The notes below the pieces were generated by a model. That model did not search any database. It was given only the letters and a program-made list of their open reading frames with translations, and had not been told where the DNA came from. A stretch of 36,555 nucleotides of DNA from a virus, in the IMG/VR virus record IMGVR_UViG_3300044998_000785, positions 1-36,555 of that record; one strand, given 5' to 3'. The first letter of the stretch is position 1, and each line of letters opens with the position of its first letter. Of the stretch, positions 2,294 through 24,500 are shown piece after piece. The position numbers and the translations under genes are program-made.

Positions 2294-5200
2294 TTAAGCT
2301 TTAGACTTTATAGAGTTCATCCTCTCTAGCACATCTTCCAACTGATCGTATATGATGGTGCCGTAAAATGGTGTATTAAGTCGTTCTAACAATAACATCA
2401 TCACTGAGTTATTCTGATTGATTAAAGCACTTATACGTTCATCGTTATTTGATGAAGCAGGCAAAGTAACTGGGGCTGTGCTGCCACCATCTTCAAATTG
2501 CCTTGCGCTTATCATAGCTTGAAGTGCACCCATCGTGTTTACCATTTTGGGGTGAGTAAAGAGCCAGTTGGGAATGATAAGCTCAGGGCCCTTTTCACCA
2601 ATTATGCCTAATTGTGGCTTATCAGCTACACCACCACCTGCTATACTACCTACGTAAGTAGTATTGTAAACTTTGCCTGATTGCTGACCCATTGCTTTTA
2701 CTGTGGTACCACCATGAACAAATTCTGGAATAGGCATTGCTGATAACAATCCGAACTTAAAAGTGGCTGCTGCAAGTTTGAAATTGGTGAGTGGGTTTAA
2801 AAAGCCTTGTGCAGCTGCTTTGAATGCCAGAACAGCTAAGTCTATCCCAGCATCAGTAACTGCAGCAATTTTTTGCATGATTGCCATTCTGCGTCTAGAT
2901 TCACGCTCTCTCCTGTTCTGCTCTTCTTGTATTCTGAATTTTTCATTTTCAAAGCGCTGCATCTCACGCAACTCTTTATCATTCTTTTCAGTAGTAAGGC
3001 GGTTTATTTCAGAATTGTACTCAGCTTCTGTCATTTTACCACGTTCTTTTTTAGAATTCAACATGGATATTTCCTGAGCATGAGTGTTTTTTATATTGTT
3101 TAAAGATTGAGAATGAGTACGCTGCTCTGTTTCAAGTCTTAGTCGGCTTGACATTTGCAGAGCAGCCAAATCGTTACTTAATACTGCCTGATAAAATTGT
3201 GATATTGTGGATAATACAGACATCACTTCTGAAGAATAGCTCTGCATGTCAGATATTCTTCTCAACTGTGCATTTTGTTCTATGGCAGCTATATCGGTAT
3301 CATATTTTTCCCAAATTAATCTTCGCTCTTCAGCCGTTAGTTTATCATTTTCGAGCAGCCTGGTGGTTTGTGCCAACAATTTGTCTTTTTCGGCCTGAAT
3401 GCGCTGGTCATCGGTTTTTGCACGTGCCAAGTCCAAATCAGCCTGCAGCATCATTCTGTTAATCTCGGCATCAATACGGTCCTTATGTTCTTTTTTTAAC
3501 GCATCTGTTTTTTCACGCTCCTTGCGTATAAAATCTTTGGCCTCTTTGTCGAGGTTTTTGCTGTTTTCGGCAATCCACTGATCAAGTAAATGGGCTTGTT
3601 CTTTGTATAGCAGCTCCTGCAGCTGCCGCAATTCTTTTGTATGGCCCACTGCTCTGGCCATGAGCTTTTGATACTTAACCTCAACCGCACGTAATTCTTT
3701 TTCATGCTTATCTAATCCATCCTGATAGGTTTTCTCTTGTAAATCTGCAATTTCCTGTTGTAGCTTTTTAAAGTCATCAGCCATTTTTTGAGCGGCTTTT
3801 GCTGCTTTCTTCGCTGCCTCTTCATCTTTTACTGCTCTATCGGCTAGCAGCCCATTCTGTTTATCTTTAAGGAGTTTATCAATATCCTTCATCTTAGCAG
3901 ATAGATCTTGGTATGCCTGTTTTGCTTCTTTTATTTTATCAATATCTCCTGATCTTATAGCCGAATCCATAGTAACTCTCCATCCGCTTCGAATGGTTTT
4001 TTGAATCATAAGTTCTTTTTCCAATTGCTCAACACTCAATTTCTGAATGCTCATCATATACTTAGTTCGTATATTAGCTTTTTCTTCCTCCTTTGCCTTA
4101 AAGTCATCGAAAGCTTTTTGCGCCCTGGCATCTACTTCATCCATAACTTGACTAAAGCCCCCTGACATAAGTAGTTTTACCCCATCAACCATGCCGTTTA
4201 CAGTGGCTAAAAACATTTCACCCAATTTGGCACCAGGACCAGATGTAAACTTAACCCATTGTTTATTTAATTTATCGAGTTCGCCAGCAAGGTTGTTTGA
4301 TTTTATTGCGACTTCATCGTTAATGCTGGCTGTGTCACTGAGTGTTTTATTGGCCAAATCAACACGCTTTTGGAGCAAATCTGTATTGTTTCCCAATTTT
4401 GCAAAAACTTCACTAGCTCCGGCACCGTTTACTTCCAAATCTTCAATCAACTTCGCCAACACAGTGCTTTTTCCGCTGAATTTGCCTGCCCCTTCCATAA
4501 CCTTAACAAAAGCTGCATATAAATCTCTATTGAGAAGGTCGGTGAAATCTTCAATTTTCATACCGGCTACTTCTGCAAAAGTTTCGGTATTGGTGAGCAT
4601 CTTTTTCAGAATTTTACCAATGGCAGTACCACCTCTTTCTGTACTAACGTTTAACTCTTGTAAAGTAGCGGAAAGCCCTAACACTTCTGCAGATGTTAAA
4701 CCAAGCGGTATACCTACGCCACCTATTCGGTTTGCAAAATCGGAGATAACAGGGCTAGTGGCCACACCACTGGCTCCTAGCTCATTTAATGCATTGGCAA
4801 TATGAGCTATGTCAATACCTACATTATCTGATTTTATGTCTGAAAAAACATTTCTCAGCTTACTCATTTCAGCTGCGATGGCTTCTGCATTGCCACCAAA
4901 TTCATCACCGAGCGCTACATTTACTTTATCTACAGCTTGCACAAATCCCAGTATCTGATCCTGAGCGATGCCGAACTGGCCCGCAACTTTAGCCATTTCA
5001 CGAAGTTCGCTTGCGCTGGTGCGTGTATCTATCATGCCTAATGCGCTATTTAGCCTGTCCACTTCATCGGCTGTCATACCGGTGGTTTTGCGCACATCTG
5101 CTAATTGATCGGCTACTTTAGCAGCTGCAGCTACACTGCCAGTAATGTAATCTTTCACACCACCTAGTGCAGAGTTAACAAGGTTGCCGCCAACAACACC

Positions 5201-16383: not shown

Positions 16384-16909
16384 CGTATTTCTTTTTAGTG
16401 TATAAAATTTTATCGTCTGGATTACGCTCCCAACTGTTTGAATGTTTTAAATCTTTAAACTCATCTTTCAAAATGCCTCCTTTTCGGTAAATAACAACTT
16501 CTTCAGCTTCTGCACCTATTCCATCGGCAACATCGGCCATTTCTTTTTTTTCTAATAGCTTATTAAATATGTTGCTAACAAGCTTTAGCTGATGTGTGCC
16601 TTTTGCTTTGTTGTGCCGTATGGTGCTCATCATTCTCTCTTCAATAGGCTTTTCAATAACAGAAACAGGGATTTCTTGTATCTTCATTTTTAGCAATACT
16701 GAGTAACGATGAAACCCATCCACGATTTCATAAATATCATTTACAGCATCGTAATAAGTAACAATTGGCATGGTCAATCCATCTTCGGTAATACTTTTTT
16801 TTAGCAACCTAAACATTTTGGCTTCCATTTTATTAGGGTTATAGCCATTAGGTTGTACCTTAGCAATTGGCACTAACCTTACATTTAAACATGGGAATTC
16901 TATTTTCAT
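16364..16909 (-). CDS. ParB-like (ParB/sulfiredoxin fold) protein, IbrB-like
   Basis: This 181-residue protein carries the ParB N-terminal fold. VPIAKVQPNGYNPN is followed by a helix (RLLKKSITEDG), the box VDGFHRYSVL (64-73) and the box IRHNKAKGTH (97-106) that in this superfamily lines the nucleotide-binding site. It lacks the C-terminal dimerisation part of chromosomal ParB. Stand-alone ParB-fold proteins paired with a PAPS-reductase-like protein are known from E. coli as IbrA/IbrB (regulators of immunoglobulin-binding proteins) and are common in phages. The gene overlaps its PAPSR partner by four bases. CTP or ATP binding is plausible; the biochemical role here is unknown. Confidence 0.85.
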   Translation of the reverse strand: MKIEFPCLNVRLVPIAKVQPNGYNPNKMEAKMFRLLKKSITEDGLTMPIVTYYDAVNDIYEIVDGFHRYSVLLKMKIQEIPVSVIEKPIEERMMSTIRHNKAKGTHQLKLVSNIFNKLLEKKEMADVADGIGAEAEEVVIYRKGGILKDEFKDLKHSNSWERNPDDKILYTKKKYDEYEEQ

Positions 16910-17883
16910 AATTCGTTTGCTTTTAGTTCTTCTTTAAGCCTATTAAAATGTTTCATGTTATGATCTTTGCTGGCTCCTCTTTTTTTAATGGCCTTTGCCT
17001 TGGCAATTTTTTGAACACGAATTTCTTTATCTTCCATAATTGCTATATCAGCAATTTTGCGAATAATCATATCGTAATAGGCGATATCAACCTCTTTGAT
17101 AAGTTCAATCTTTTTAAGGGCATTCACATTTAGGATTGATGCCGTTCGCATCTCCTGCACGGGCATATTCTTTTGATAGTACATATCGTAAATTGGGTTA
17201 TATGGGATATTGTTGTCGGCAATAAATTTCCAATCATCCTTATCGTACCAATCATAAATAGGATAGAAGTTAAAGTTTCGAGAACCAGTGCCTTTACTAC
17301 TCCATGGTATTCCACTAATACCATCGCGAGATGTTACAGCAACATATCTACGCAGACTTTCTTGCGCTCTTAAACCAAGCAAAAACGCACAGCCATTTAG
17401 CTTTTGTTCGGCATAAAAAGATGCTGATATTTTCCGAATTAAGCTGCTTTTTTTCGGCATCTTCATAGTCATGTCATGATGAAAGCAATCCGCTGGCAAC
17501 GGCCTTACATTTTTACTCTCATCATTTGCCCATACTTCAATTACTTTATCATCCAAAAAGGTAACCTTACGCCACATACGTGGGCAAACCCAATAAAATT
17601 TAAGGTATTGCTCTTTATATTTTTCACGTATTGACTCAATGTAATGGATGGTGGTAATGTTTTCAATTTCCTGATCAATAAATATTATGTTGAATTTTCG
17701 GTTGTGTTTTTCAGCATATTTAAAACATAGGAATAAAACACAGGTAGAATCTTTCCCGCCTGAGAAATTAACAAATATCTTTTCGTCTGTATATCGGTCA
17801 AAAACCAATTTTATGCGCTCATAAGCTGCATCTAATACAGATTTGTCTTTATTATACAATTTAGCTGGTGGTTTGGCTCTCAT
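16906..17883 (-). CDS. PAPS-reductase-like (PP-loop ATPase) protein, IbrA/DndC-like
   Basis: This 325-residue protein has the PP-loop SGGKDSTCVL at 41-50, which binds ATP and activates a substrate by adenylation. Later GLRAQESLRRY (about 175) and the pattern YPIYDWYDKDDW (about 210) are typical of the phosphoadenosine phosphosulfate reductase family. The C-terminal tail is very basic (KAKAIKKRGASKDH), suggesting nucleic acid contact. Relatives include IbrA and DndC. It is coupled by four-base overlaps to the SNF2 gene before it and the ParB-like gene after it. Phage copies have been suspected to take part in nucleic acid modification or gene control, but a reaction is not established. Confidence 0.88.
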   Translation of the reverse strand: MRAKPPAKLYNKDKSVLDAAYERIKLVFDRYTDEKIFVNFSGGKDSTCVLFLCFKYAEKHNRKFNIIFIDQEIENITTIHYIESIREKYKEQYLKFYWVCPRMWRKVTFLDDKVIEVWANDESKNVRPLPADCFHHDMTMKMPKKSSLIRKISASFYAEQKLNGCAFLLGLRAQESLRRYVAVTSRDGISGIPWSSKGTGSRNFNFYPIYDWYDKDDWKFIADNNIPYNPIYDMYYQKNMPVQEMRTASILNVNALKKIELIKEVDIAYYDMIIRKIADIAIMEDKEIRVQKIAKAKAIKKRGASKDHNMKHFNRLKEELKANEL

Positions 17884-21179: not shown

Positions 21180-21596
21180 TTAGATTACAAAATCAAGAAT
21201 TTCAGATTCGATAACTCCGACCTGTTGTTTAACCTGCTCACGAATTAAAGCCAGTACAGGCTTTAAAATAGCAGGGTGGGCGGTTGTGAATGTGTTGCCT
21301 TTGCTGTCTTTTAACTGCAAACTTTGGCTGTGTTCATCACTGCCAATGGCAAAGCTTTCAATTTTCTGTTGGGTTTCCTTGTAAGTAGCATGTTTGTCTA
21401 CAAGGCTGTTTAATTGCTCATTCCGTGCGATGCGGTCGGCAACTGTCAAAACTTGCGTTTTGCTTTTGTCAAGTTTTGCTTCAACTGCTCCACCATCAGG
21501 CGCAATGGTAGTTGTGCTTTTTTCAACTTGTGCAGTTTTTGTTTCTGTTTTGGTTGCCACTCCTTGAGTTGCAGAGCCATTGTTTTTTGTTGTCAT
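21180..21596 (-). CDS. Unknown 138-residue protein paired with DUF932
   Basis: The protein has a Thr/Lys/Ser-rich, low-complexity first third (about 1-45, with TKTETKTAQVEKS), which is probably unstructured. The rest is helical (VADRIARNEQLNSLVDKHATY and a C-terminal helix with REQVKQQVGVIESEIL). No family is recognised. It is the first gene after the promoter/operator at 21621-21652. It might be a partner of the DUF932 protein; this is inferred from adjacency alone. Confidence 0.65.
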   Translation of the reverse strand: MTTKNNGSATQGVATKTETKTAQVEKSTTTIAPDGGAVEAKLDKSKTQVLTVADRIARNEQLNSLVDKHATYKETQQKIESFAIGSDEHSQSLQLKDSKGNTFTTAHPAILKPVLALIREQVKQQVGVIESEILDFVI

Positions 21597-21620
21597 GTTG
21601 TTAAATTTTTAACGGCATTG

Positions 21621-21652
21621 TAAAGATAGTCAAACACCTTGTATTTACAAGG
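21621..21652 (-). promoter_or_regulatory. Promoter with an inverted repeat at the -33 box
   Basis: Minus strand: TTG (21650-21648), 19 bases, TATCTTTA (21628-21621), one base off the consensus. The -33 box sits inside the dyad CCTTGTAAATACAAGG (21637-21652), which looks like an operator: a bound repressor would block RNA polymerase. Confidence 0.7.
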
Positions 21653-21887
21653 CTTTACGCTGATTTTGTATTAAATTATTCAATTTTATTAATCTGATTA
21701 TCAAACATTTATAATATATTGATATCATGGCATTTACAGCTGCAAATGATTGAAATGCAATTATTTGTTTTTTAGGTTTTTGGCTGCACCTTTTTTGAAA
21801 AAGGTTGCAACCAAGTGTCAACTTCTCACCGCGTCGCCTATCCAAAAAAATGGAATTTCCGTTCCGTTTTTTTCGAAATCTGAAACG
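21653..21887. other. AT-rich gene-free stretch before the hairpin region
   Basis: Little is seen here apart from a local inverted repeat CCTTTTTTGAAAAAGG near 21790 and many short T and A runs. Open frames are short, lack a start context and are not conserved in style with neighbours. It may hold a promoter for a plus-strand RNA, but no TAnnTTTG box was found. Confidence 0.5.
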
Positions 21888-22233
21888 GCAGCCCTGCGGG
21901 CTGCGCCCCTATGTGTGGCTGGTTTGGCGTGGGATACACATAGGCCGCCCCTATATTGTGAACTCTTGGCACAAGTGTTCACGCCTATATCGGTGTGGCA
22001 TTGTGTCGCATGTGAACGAGTGAATGAGTGAGCTTTGCCTTAGGCGTGCGAACATATGAACGTAGAGAATAGGCGACTTAATGCCACACAAGGATGTGTG
22101 CATGAGTAACAATGCACTCATCCACATTATAGCTTACCTTTCAATGCATTGTATGCTTTGAATGGTAAGCGTGCGCAAGGGATTGAAGCTAGCTACCGTG
22201 TAGCGCGTAAAGCCCGGTACCGAAGGTATGCGC
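21888..22233 (+). ncRNA. Highly structured stretch behind the large terminase gene (possible RNA or packaging site)
   Basis: At least eight stems are visible within 346 bases: GCAGCCC/GGGCTGC (21888-21904); CCTATGTGT/ACACATAGG (21908-21944); GTGAAC-T-CTTG hairpin (21958-21982); a long-range stem GTGTGGCAT/ATGCCACAC (21993-22001 with 22081-22089) closing a multi-branch region; GATG-T-GTGCAT hairpin (22093-22122); GCTTACC-T-TTCAA-T-GCAT hairpin (22132-22170); GCGCA/TGCGC (22173-22233) enclosing GCTAC/GTAGC and TACC/GGTA. Mismatches in three hairpins are always T opposite T on the plus strand, which favours a plus-strand RNA. The last part resembles, from memory, a conserved Bacteroidetes intergenic motif (AGGGATTGAAGC...AAAGCCCGG). 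No coding frame fits. A pac/cos-like site is an alternative. Confidence 0.55.
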
Positions 22234-22234
22234 C

Positions 22235-23905
22235 CTAAAGATTAGTAAGGAATGGTAATGCTCGCTTATACTTCAACAGATTTGCATACTTACCAAATAC
22301 TATCTGGTCTGCTGCATCGCTTCCGTCAGTTGCTTCCTCTCGATTTTGTTTGAATAGTTTCTCTGATGATTTGTTCTTTCTTATACCTGCTCTACCATCA
22401 TCAATGGCTGGTGCTAACTCCATCGATACTATTAACTCTTTACAATTGATAAGATTAAATCCTACCTCAGGGAATATCTTATCTCGCCTAAGCAATAGCA
22501 ATGCCCATAGGAGATACTTATCGTTGTGGCTTGGGTTGCGCTTGCCCCTATTCTTCACATGCACTATCCATCCATTATCACGCAGTATCTTCACCACTTG
22601 GTCGGTTAATGCCTGCGTACTGTTTATCTGTTTCACATTTCCCTGTGCATCGGGCCAAAGGTTAACCTCTTTCTTTTTGTGATGCTTATAATATTCACAG
22701 AAATCCAACACAACATGGTCAACAATTTTCGGAGCTTTCACATAGAAATTCTTAATGAAGTTTATGCGGTTAATAGATTTTAGTTCCTGGGCTACTACTA
22801 ACCAATTTATGTGCACCCCGAAATCCATACCAATATCGAGCGGTAAGTTATCAATACAGTCTTTATCTTGTCGGCTATCTAAAGACTTTATTTTTGATAA
22901 ATCGAAATCGAGGCTATCAAGGAACGAATAATTGAATGAGCCTTTATAACCATGCTTAACCCGGTCAAGACTAGAGTAAAAACCACCGTCAATTTTATTA
23001 ATATGCTTATTTAAAACCTCAATCAGAAACATAGTTTCTGTCATGCCATCGTGCAGGTCGTGTATATATCTTAATGAAAGATTGGTGAGGTTATCAAATG
23101 CGTTTGCTTCAGAATAGTAGAAACCGTTTTTAGATGGAAAGCTCCTAAGCTTTTTATCTAGCTGAAGTATCAGTCCATATATTTCGAGCTTTGTTTTTTT
23201 ATCTCGTTCTTTTATAAACTGCAGCTGTAGATCTATCATGCGGTTACGCAATGCTCTAAAATCATAACCCTCATCTTCGTAGTAATGGGATGGCTTTAAC
23301 AACCATTGACCATCAGCACCGAATGGCATTGATGAAAAATGAAACTCAGCGTGATGCAGCGGATGCTTTTTGAAATACTCTTCATGACCCCGATTTGTAG
23401 CTTTGGTTTCACGGGCATAACGCTCGTAATCGATAGTTAATGATTCATCGGTTATATTGCCATCAAACGAAGGCCCACGTGCAGAGCCTTCCCTATCCTG
23501 ACTTAGCAAAGCAAAACCCACGCAATTTCTATCAGGCCTTACAAATGTGATGAAGTTATCAAACTTGAAAGGTGTCCAATAAGGCATATTCACACCATCA
23601 GGTCGTTTACGGATAAAGTAATTTACATCCTTTCGATAACCTAACTTTTCTAAACCCTCAAAAGTACCGGGAAGCGTTAAAGTAAGCAATTGTTGAAATG
23701 TGGCTCCTTGAATACTCCACGTAGCCCTTGGCATGGTTCGCACAATCATATCAATCAGTACAGCAATAACCGTACTCTTACCCGTAGCACGCCCCCAGAT
23801 GTTATTAGCTTTTTTTATCGCACCACGCCACAAATGCAGCATAAAGTTTTGTTGCGGTTTGTTGTACGTTATTTCAGATATGTCAATATCGTTTTCACTC
23901 ATCAT
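22235..23905 (-). CDS. terL: Phage terminase large subunit
   Basis: The 556-residue protein has an N-terminal ATPase with a Walker-A-like loop GRATGKST (38-45) and an acidic Walker-B-like stretch GNITDESL (about 150). Its C-terminal RNase H-like nuclease has the first acidic residue in LDIGMDFGV (about 360), the second in LWPDAQGN (about 420) and a later one in NPSHNDKYLLWALLL. It packs DNA into proheads through the portal. It overlaps the small-terminase candidate by 11 bases. The downstream neighbour is not a portal gene but a structured gene-free stretch, which is unusual. Confidence 0.88.
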   Translation of the reverse strand: MMSENDIDISEITYNKPQQNFMLHLWRGAIKKANNIWGRATGKSTVIAVLIDMIVRTMPRATWSIQGATFQQLLTLTLPGTFEGLEKLGYRKDVNYFIRKRPDGVNMPYWTPFKFDNFITFVRPDRNCVGFALLSQDREGSARGPSFDGNITDESLTIDYERYARETKATNRGHEEYFKKHPLHHAEFHFSSMPFGADGQWLLKPSHYYEDEGYDFRALRNRMIDLQLQFIKERDKKTKLEIYGLILQLDKKLRSFPSKNGFYYSEANAFDNLTNLSLRYIHDLHDGMTETMFLIEVLNKHINKIDGGFYSSLDRVKHGYKGSFNYSFLDSLDFDLSKIKSLDSRQDKDCIDNLPLDIGMDFGVHINWLVVAQELKSINRINFIKNFYVKAPKIVDHVVLDFCEYYKHHKKKEVNLWPDAQGNVKQINSTQALTDQVVKILRDNGWIVHVKNRGKRNPSHNDKYLLWALLLLRRDKIFPEVGFNLINCKELIVSMELAPAIDDGRAGIRKNKSSEKLFKQNREEATDGSDAADQIVFGKYANLLKYKRALPFLTNL

Positions 23906-24500
23906 CGCTCACATCAAGTTCATCCAACTGAGATTTTATTTGCTCCGGATCCGGCAGCGAGCTGCTATTATCATCAAGTATTTGTTCAAACTCTGATTCA
24001 GGAAGCTTTTGCAACGCATCCATATTCAAAGTTTTATTTGATTCGTTGCCCTTTATTACGATTTGAATGGTAGATGGAAGCACGATGCCACCAGTTTCAT
24101 CATCTTTTAATAAACCTAGCAACAAATCTATATGCTTACTGGCTGCTACAGCCGACATATAATCGCCATCTTGTTCAGCTATTGAACGAAGCTGCTTATA
24201 CCATTCCACCTGCACGGTTTTCATGTAATCCTTATCATCTTTAAACATGGTACCGTACAGTTTCTGCGTTTCCTTTATATCATAATACGCCTGGCGTTCA
24301 CTCACATTAAACCTGTCGCAGTAAATGGTAATGATCTGGCGTTTGCTTAACGCTGGCCTGTGTCTGCGAAACTGGTCATCAATAAATTTATACCGCACCA
24401 GTAAATCCTGATCGGTTGGCGATAAGTCAAGTTCGCCCCTGCGTTTTTCGGGTGTGCTCACCCATTTCAGCAGCTTATCAAATAGTGTATAATCACCCAT
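23895..24500 (-). CDS. Putative terminase small subunit
   Basis: This 201-residue protein has basic N-terminal helices with a helix-turn-helix-like pattern (ALSKRQIITIYCDRFNVSERQAYYD, in parts about 50-75), a helical middle that could oligomerise, and a very acidic C-terminal tail (SQLDELDVSDDE). This layout and the overlap with the large terminase fit the DNA-recognising small subunit. The 98-residue protein encoded just before it is an alternative or additional candidate. Confidence 0.65.
   Translation of the reverse strand: MGDYTLFDKLLKWVSTPEKRRGELDLSPTDQDLLVRYKFIDDQFRRHRPALSKRQIITIYCDRFNVSERQAYYDIKETQKLYGTMFKDDKDYMKTVQVEWYKQLRSIAEQDGDYMSAVAASKHIDLLLGLLKDDETGGIVLPSTIQIVIKGNESNKTLNMDALQKLPESEFEQILDDNSSSLPDPEQIKSQLDELDVSDDE

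Follow-up and report, generated by a model that had tools for sequence, protein, structure and literature searches.

The Flavo-1 RNA motif (RF01705) was reportedly described by Weinberg in 2010, and is said to have been held in Rfam since that year as a presumed sRNA without a function. REP sequences are dispersed palindromes near gene 3′ ends, mobilised by Y1 (RAYT) transposases. In phages, GOLLD and ROOL provide examples of many-stemmed, gene-free RNAs. Phages also have cos and pac sites, where non-coding hairpins and repeats adjoin the terminase genes.

Here, we describe a hairpin-rich segment behind the large terminase gene (terL) of a 36,555-base virus record, the whole of which we call the window. 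The terL-proximal part of the segment shares with Flavo-1 the junction GAT-N-GnA-GC...GC-GnA-N-AGC and an outer stem that occurs in both polarities; both are intergenic and multi-copy in Flavobacteria, and the canonical form occupies the same terL site in two relatives (L193 and L195). The element differs in having a compact hairpin, AGCTACCGTGTAGCGCG, where Flavo-1 has its long GGAAATCC...GATTGnA arm. Like REP sequences, Flavo-1-type elements are dispersed, palindromic and near gene 3′ ends in either orientation, but their conserved internal loops are more elaborate. Only two of 37 loci with a Y1 transposase (PF01797) had an element within their 1.5-kb flanks (L138 and L140), on which count we rejected mobilisation of the RAYT/REP kind. 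The segment resembles GOLLD and ROOL in its phage setting, many stems and lack of a gene, yet it is shorter, composite rather than a single fold, and without an Rfam match at the thresholds used. A first-pass annotation had raised GOLLD and ROOL as candidates: neither matched 21600–22300 up to E 10, and a wider Rfam search at gathering score returned no family in the window except a tRNA, so these and other Rfam families were set aside for the segment. With cos and pac sites it has in common non-coding repeats and hairpins beside terminase genes, but it lies downstream of terL and its last 60 bases come from a repeat family abundant in bacteria.

The hairpin segment and its neighbours

The segment fills the gap between two minus-strand genes. 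One is terL, at 22235–23905. The window protein alone matched no Pfam or PHROG family; among 11 aligned members of its family, five hit PHROG 2, a terminase large subunit family (best E 3e-23), and four hit Pfam Terminase_6N. The family profile matches the phage terminase 4zni (E 1.6e-5), and a model predicted with a mean pLDDT of 82.5 matches the large terminase of D6E (E 1e-14). Judged by family profile and predicted structure, this is a genuine terminase large subunit. The protein at 23895–24500 matched no family, and is probably the small terminase, given its position and a helix-turn-helix-like stretch. On the far side of the gap, relatives of 21180–21596 (g21180) occur in the same position in L006, L193, L194, L195, L196, L199, L133 and L170. 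Elsewhere, the window carries a tRNA-Arg gene and a tyrosine integrase at its left end, and a phage-borne phosphoadenosine phosphosulfate reductase-like gene (phrog_2302) at 16906–17883. The features below are annotated in part by comparison with L005 (identical to L008), a relative whose TerL is 98% identical to that of the window and whose segment is alignable but diverged.

21180–21596, minus strand: next gene beyond the gap (g21180), phrog_19224, function not known
21827–21887, plus strand: weak counterpart of the family's left block, here CACCGCGTCGCCTAT...AAATCTGAAACGG and in relatives CTGCCGCCCGCACTAT...ATATATGA; the alignment is weak for the window
21888–22233, no strand assigned: non-coding hairpin cluster between terL and the next gene, from folding, GC and comparison with L005
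21888–21904, plus strand: hairpin GCAGCCC/GGGCTGC, identical in L005
21904–21912 and 21946–21954, plus strand: direct repeat CGCCCCTAT, flanking the inverted repeat 21908–21916/21936–21944
21958–21982, plus strand: hairpin GTGAAC.CTTG/CAAG.GTTCAC
21993–22089, plus strand: long-range helix around a branched region; one T:A to G:C double change in L005
22092–22123, plus strand: hairpin; two double changes in L005 (G:C to A:T and C:G to T:A)
22132–22170, plus strand: hairpin GCTTACC/GGTAAGC; one T:A to C:G double change in L005
22172–22234, plus strand: compact Flavo-1-type element; G-type outer stem 22173–22177/22229–22233, third hairpin 22218–22228
22178–22216, plus strand: covariance-model core of the element; inner hairpin GCTAC-CGT-GTAGC at 22192–22204
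22235–23905, minus strand: terL, terminase large subunit; its TAG stop adjoins the end of the Flavo-1-type element (22234)
23895–24500, minus strand: putative small terminase, by position and helix-turn-helix-like stretch

The predicted fold of 21860–22240 reaches −144.5 kcal/mol on the plus strand (z −4.95) and −123.1 kcal/mol on the minus strand (z −3.74), with none of 100 shuffles as stable in either case. Sixteen helices of at least 3 bp, spanning 21865–22233, are common to the folds of both strands computed without G-U, among them a long-range pairing (21993–22009/22073–22089) that encloses about 63 nt. In 200-base windows, GC is 0.51 inside the segment, against 0.26–0.37 just to its left and 0.35–0.44 to its right. 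The only open reading frames through it are mechanical, TTG-start ones on the plus strand, and the nearest frames called in L005 differ from those of the window. The first-pass claims of at least eight stems, a long-range stem closing a branched region, raised GC and a gene-free stretch were thus all borne out: the cluster is a real, fast-changing non-coding segment. It is also composite rather than one RNA, because its last 60 or so bases belong to another, widely distributed element. In the remainder, 21888–22170, hairpins and CCCCTAT-type repeats make up a phage cassette of a kind that swaps quickly among relatives; CCCCTAT/CCCTAT units resembling the CGCCCCTAT repeat are present in L193–L200. 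An earlier suggestion of an integrated small element holds in part, for the terL-proximal third, a Flavo-1-type repeat with tens of copies in some flavobacterial genomes.

Covariation, named at first pass as a check on the segment, was sought in the comparison with L005. The Watson-Crick-only helices comprise 88 pairs, of which 11 differ between the two phages: four were compensated on both sides, two became G-T and five were broken. RNAalifold kept 107 pairs, seven with both sides changed, and gave a consensus of −125 for the plus strand versus −105 for the minus strand. The compensated pairs indicate that structure, beyond composition, is under selection in this pair at least. One-sided changes in the Watson-Crick helices of the hairpin part (two G-T and no A-C on the plus strand) lean slightly toward RNA.

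The fold common to the window and L005 is absent from other relatives. Segments behind terL are strongly structured in several of these, such as L195, L199, L272 and L170 (z −4 to −10). L198 and L199, whose TerL proteins are 93% identical, resemble each other in the left block (77% over 90 nt), after which they are mostly unrelated up to terL. The unrelated segments occupy 4635–5122 in L198 and 4635–5104 in L199, and L198 has a long, near-perfect hairpin in place of Flavo-1. Over the N-terminal 60% of the small-terminase-like protein, L198 and L199 are 55% identical, versus 95% for the window and L005; that this divergence tracks the segment fits a packaging role, without proving one. A conserved CTGCCGCCCGCACTAT...AGGCATATATGA block marks the left end of the gap in L193 (4900–5290), L195 and L197–L201; in L193 and L195, repeats of CTCCCTAT...CAAGCGCAGCTTACC come next. 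Cassettes behind terL, then, turn over. When presence of the element is mapped onto a 42-row TerL tree, about 10 gains or losses are required. As few suffice in 70 of 500 shuffles, and the label is not significantly clustered.

Flavo-1-type repeats in bacteria and behind terL

A covariance model (R1) found a single match in the window, 22178–22216, at 62.8 bits (E 1.3e-16). R1 was built from 78 copies in bacterial genome assemblies only; one of these copies (L087) may itself derive from a phage, since a TerL-like protein is encoded on the same 29,943-base contig, G008:C14. RF01705, whose gathering cut-off is 42 bits, did not match the window copy in 21600–22300 up to E 10. Going by sequence and covariation, 22172–22234 is very probably a compact Flavo-1-type element: it combines a G-type outer stem, the Flavo-1 junction and a short hairpin in place of the long arm.

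The bacterial distribution of the repeat is broad. The element word occurs in at least 120 places in a collection of 84,980 genomes, nearly all in Bacteroidota and mostly Flavobacteriia; a second draw of Bacteroidota genomes mostly repeated the first. Among the matches listed, L024, L090 and L094 look like chance word matches and were left out of R1. Copies in MAGs labelled Dehalococcoidia and Nitrotoga (L046 and L047) possibly reflect Bacteroidota contamination in binning. Alignment of the 78 distinct copies reveals a common frame, with at least three standard forms at each of the column pairs 2/38, 3/37 and 7/33. In alignment A5, 122 cells have both sides changed, against 45.1 ± 4.6 in shuffles (0 of 500 as high), and the covariation score is 0.289 versus 0.012–0.077 for slid partners. 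The covarying junction and N1:N2 pair are shared with Flavo-1, a structure named by hand and counted on the 78 copies; the window fits R1.

Reciprocal searches connect the compact and canonical forms. RF01705 matches all eight C-type compact copies tested, at 26.9–36.1 bits and so under the cut-off, as it does the compact copy of L012. In reverse, of 25 sources whose copies are canonical-type, R1 matches three at E < 0.001. True Flavo-1 copies from five genomes have the same junction, most with the long arm rather than the compact hairpin. Across 12 genomes (E up to 1), RF01705 gave 2–141 matches each and exceeded its cut-off in 10; the counts include 141 (G006), 92 (G003), 75 (G011) and 50 (G001). 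Gene 3′ ends are closer to the compact bacterial copies (median distances of 57 and 66.5 nt) than gene starts are (110 and 87.5 nt), and the orientation of these copies relative to tandem neighbours is weakly biased (38 vs 25, or 41 vs 21 under a looser ORF rule), all of these counts resting on mechanical ORF calls.

Among annotated phages and plasmids, homology beyond low-complexity or weak matches was confined to 46 nt in two Microcystis phage records, a blastn match that led to a word recurring in unrelated flanks. These records, MZ447863 and MZ570427, share a stretch with a RadC-like gene and a Flavo-1-type element with a Sphingobacteriaceae MAG contig (L002 1700–2570, and L087), so their stated cyanobacterial host may be wrong.

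In phages, Flavo-1-type elements recur at the 3′ end of terL. Lying 17–34 nt after the stop and invariably antisense to the gene, they occur in 13 lineages (window/L005, L006, L170, L193, L194, L195, L197, L199, L200, L203, L204, L215 and L226). Some lineages were found via the motif itself (the window, L006 and L193) and others via TerL; the elements were located with descriptors, both strict and relaxed, by inspection and with R1, and their cores are of at least six kinds. Canonical Flavo-1 occupies the site in L193 (identical to L182; 53.7 bits, over the cut-off) and L195, and other cores do so in L170, L194, L197, L199, L200, L203, L204, L215 and L226. The strict descriptor, which was tuned on known copies, finds 11 places in 627,645 bases versus 0.2 in shuffles; L196 has its copy about 0.8 kb beyond terL, and that of L206 is not near the terL stop. 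L206 is also the only locus chosen by TerL alone with an R1 match away from that stop, while motif-chosen viral loci with an element elsewhere comprise L002/L003, L007, L175, L186 and L187. L007, a 70-kb viral contig, has three compact elements within 4 kb (at 3040, 6036 and 6758). An A4 scan for TerL relatives found three, one being L006 itself. The circular genome G573, with g21180 split over its ends, has a single RF01705 match, at terL. A provirus with an element so placed is present in the Bacteroidota genome G138. In the wider family, 10 of 66 records have an element after the terL stop, eight by descriptor and L197 and L199 by inspection and R1; the 66 are the 68 loci examined, of 80 kept, minus two without sequence after the stop.

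Candidate roles of the repeat

How might such an element act? Pairs left free to vary by the search pattern (columns 2/38, 3/37, 7/33 and 17/25) contain two G-U in 312 cells, compared with eight in 91 pairs of tRNA acceptor stems at the same loci, and the outer stem of compact copies is symmetric, with five G-T and four A-C. Because G-U is scarce relative to the tRNA control and the outer stem symmetric, the sequences suggest a requirement for Watson-Crick pairing whichever strand is considered, as in a DNA hairpin or a both-strand site. Our preferred reading, held tentatively and at somewhat less than an even chance, is a protein-recognised, REP-like structured repeat that marks the 3′ end of terL. 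A host or phage protein would read the element in strictly Watson-Crick form, from either strand; the element would be recruited repeatedly to the terL 3′ end, and would mark the end of the packaging operon there, as bacterial copies lie near gene ends. We infer all three parts of this mechanism: action at the DNA level or from either strand, a recognising protein, and a boundary role. A simple strong-hairpin boundary drew no support from 110-nt windows after terL, whose median folds were −17.7 with the element (n = 13) and −19.1 without it (n = 46), against −16.9 in windows after other genes of the same loci (n = 144). Folds after terL being no better than those after other genes, plain hairpin strength at the operon end is not the point. 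Counting against the preferred reading are the want of an association with the Y1 transposases that mobilise REPs, the small share of family records with a terL-adjacent element, the weak orientation bias, and the slight lean of the hairpin part toward RNA.

That lean belongs to a different account, in which the segment encodes a structured phage ncRNA of about 350 nt, on the plus strand and antisense to terL, with the Flavo-1-type element as its 3′ domain. The better fold of the plus strand, the seven doubly compensated pairs and the G-T-only one-sided changes between the window and L005, and the strongly structured segments of several relatives all point that way. We nevertheless regard it as unlikely, since the fold is common to the window and L005 only, bacterial copies avoid G-U, and the Bacteroidetes-type promoter motif, TTTG-N16-21-TAnnTTTG, is absent anywhere in the window. 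Flavo-1 matches in Flavobacterium psychrophilum also speak against it: they are sense or antisense to transcripts, with many outside any, and the transcriptome paper, in the parts available, offers no clue to their role (PMC9723704). The portions available of the literature on Flavo-1, flavobacterial intergenic palindromes and terL-adjacent intergenic structure name no function for Flavo-1. Unlikely, too, is a pac or cos site, at which the small terminase would read the repeats and hairpins and the terminase would cut, with the Flavo-1-type element as part or passenger. The segment does adjoin a verified terminase, much of the close family has a gap after terL, and segment and small-terminase N-part diverge together in L198/L199 and are both conserved in the window and L005; but the informative pairs number just two, most family members are without the element, and the G573 circle closes inside g21180 rather than in the gap.

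Alternatively, Flavo-1 may be a mobile Bacteroidota repeat without any function in these phages, inserting into the one large gap that their compact genomes offer. Its copy number in some bacterial genomes and its repeated gain or loss on the TerL tree accord with this, but we judge it improbable: chance insertion into a gap several hundred bases wide would not produce a placement and antisense orientation as regular as those seen in 13 of 13 lineages, and the cores differ while the covarying frame is kept. More speculatively, and in our estimation a long way from likely, the space between terL and the next gene may be, in a family of Bacteroidota phages, a dedicated non-coding slot in which structured cassettes are swapped between close relatives, with the Flavo-1-type element a fixed dock bearing an exchangeable core; the small terminase or a host nucleic-acid-binding protein would start packaging there, and Flavo-1 would be a DNA-level docking site copied by phages from their hosts.

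Whichever role applies, a fixed phage site beside a gene of known function provides a tractable place to probe what Flavo-1 does. It may act in DNA form, a possibility raised by its compact subtype and by the near-total lack of G-U pairs.
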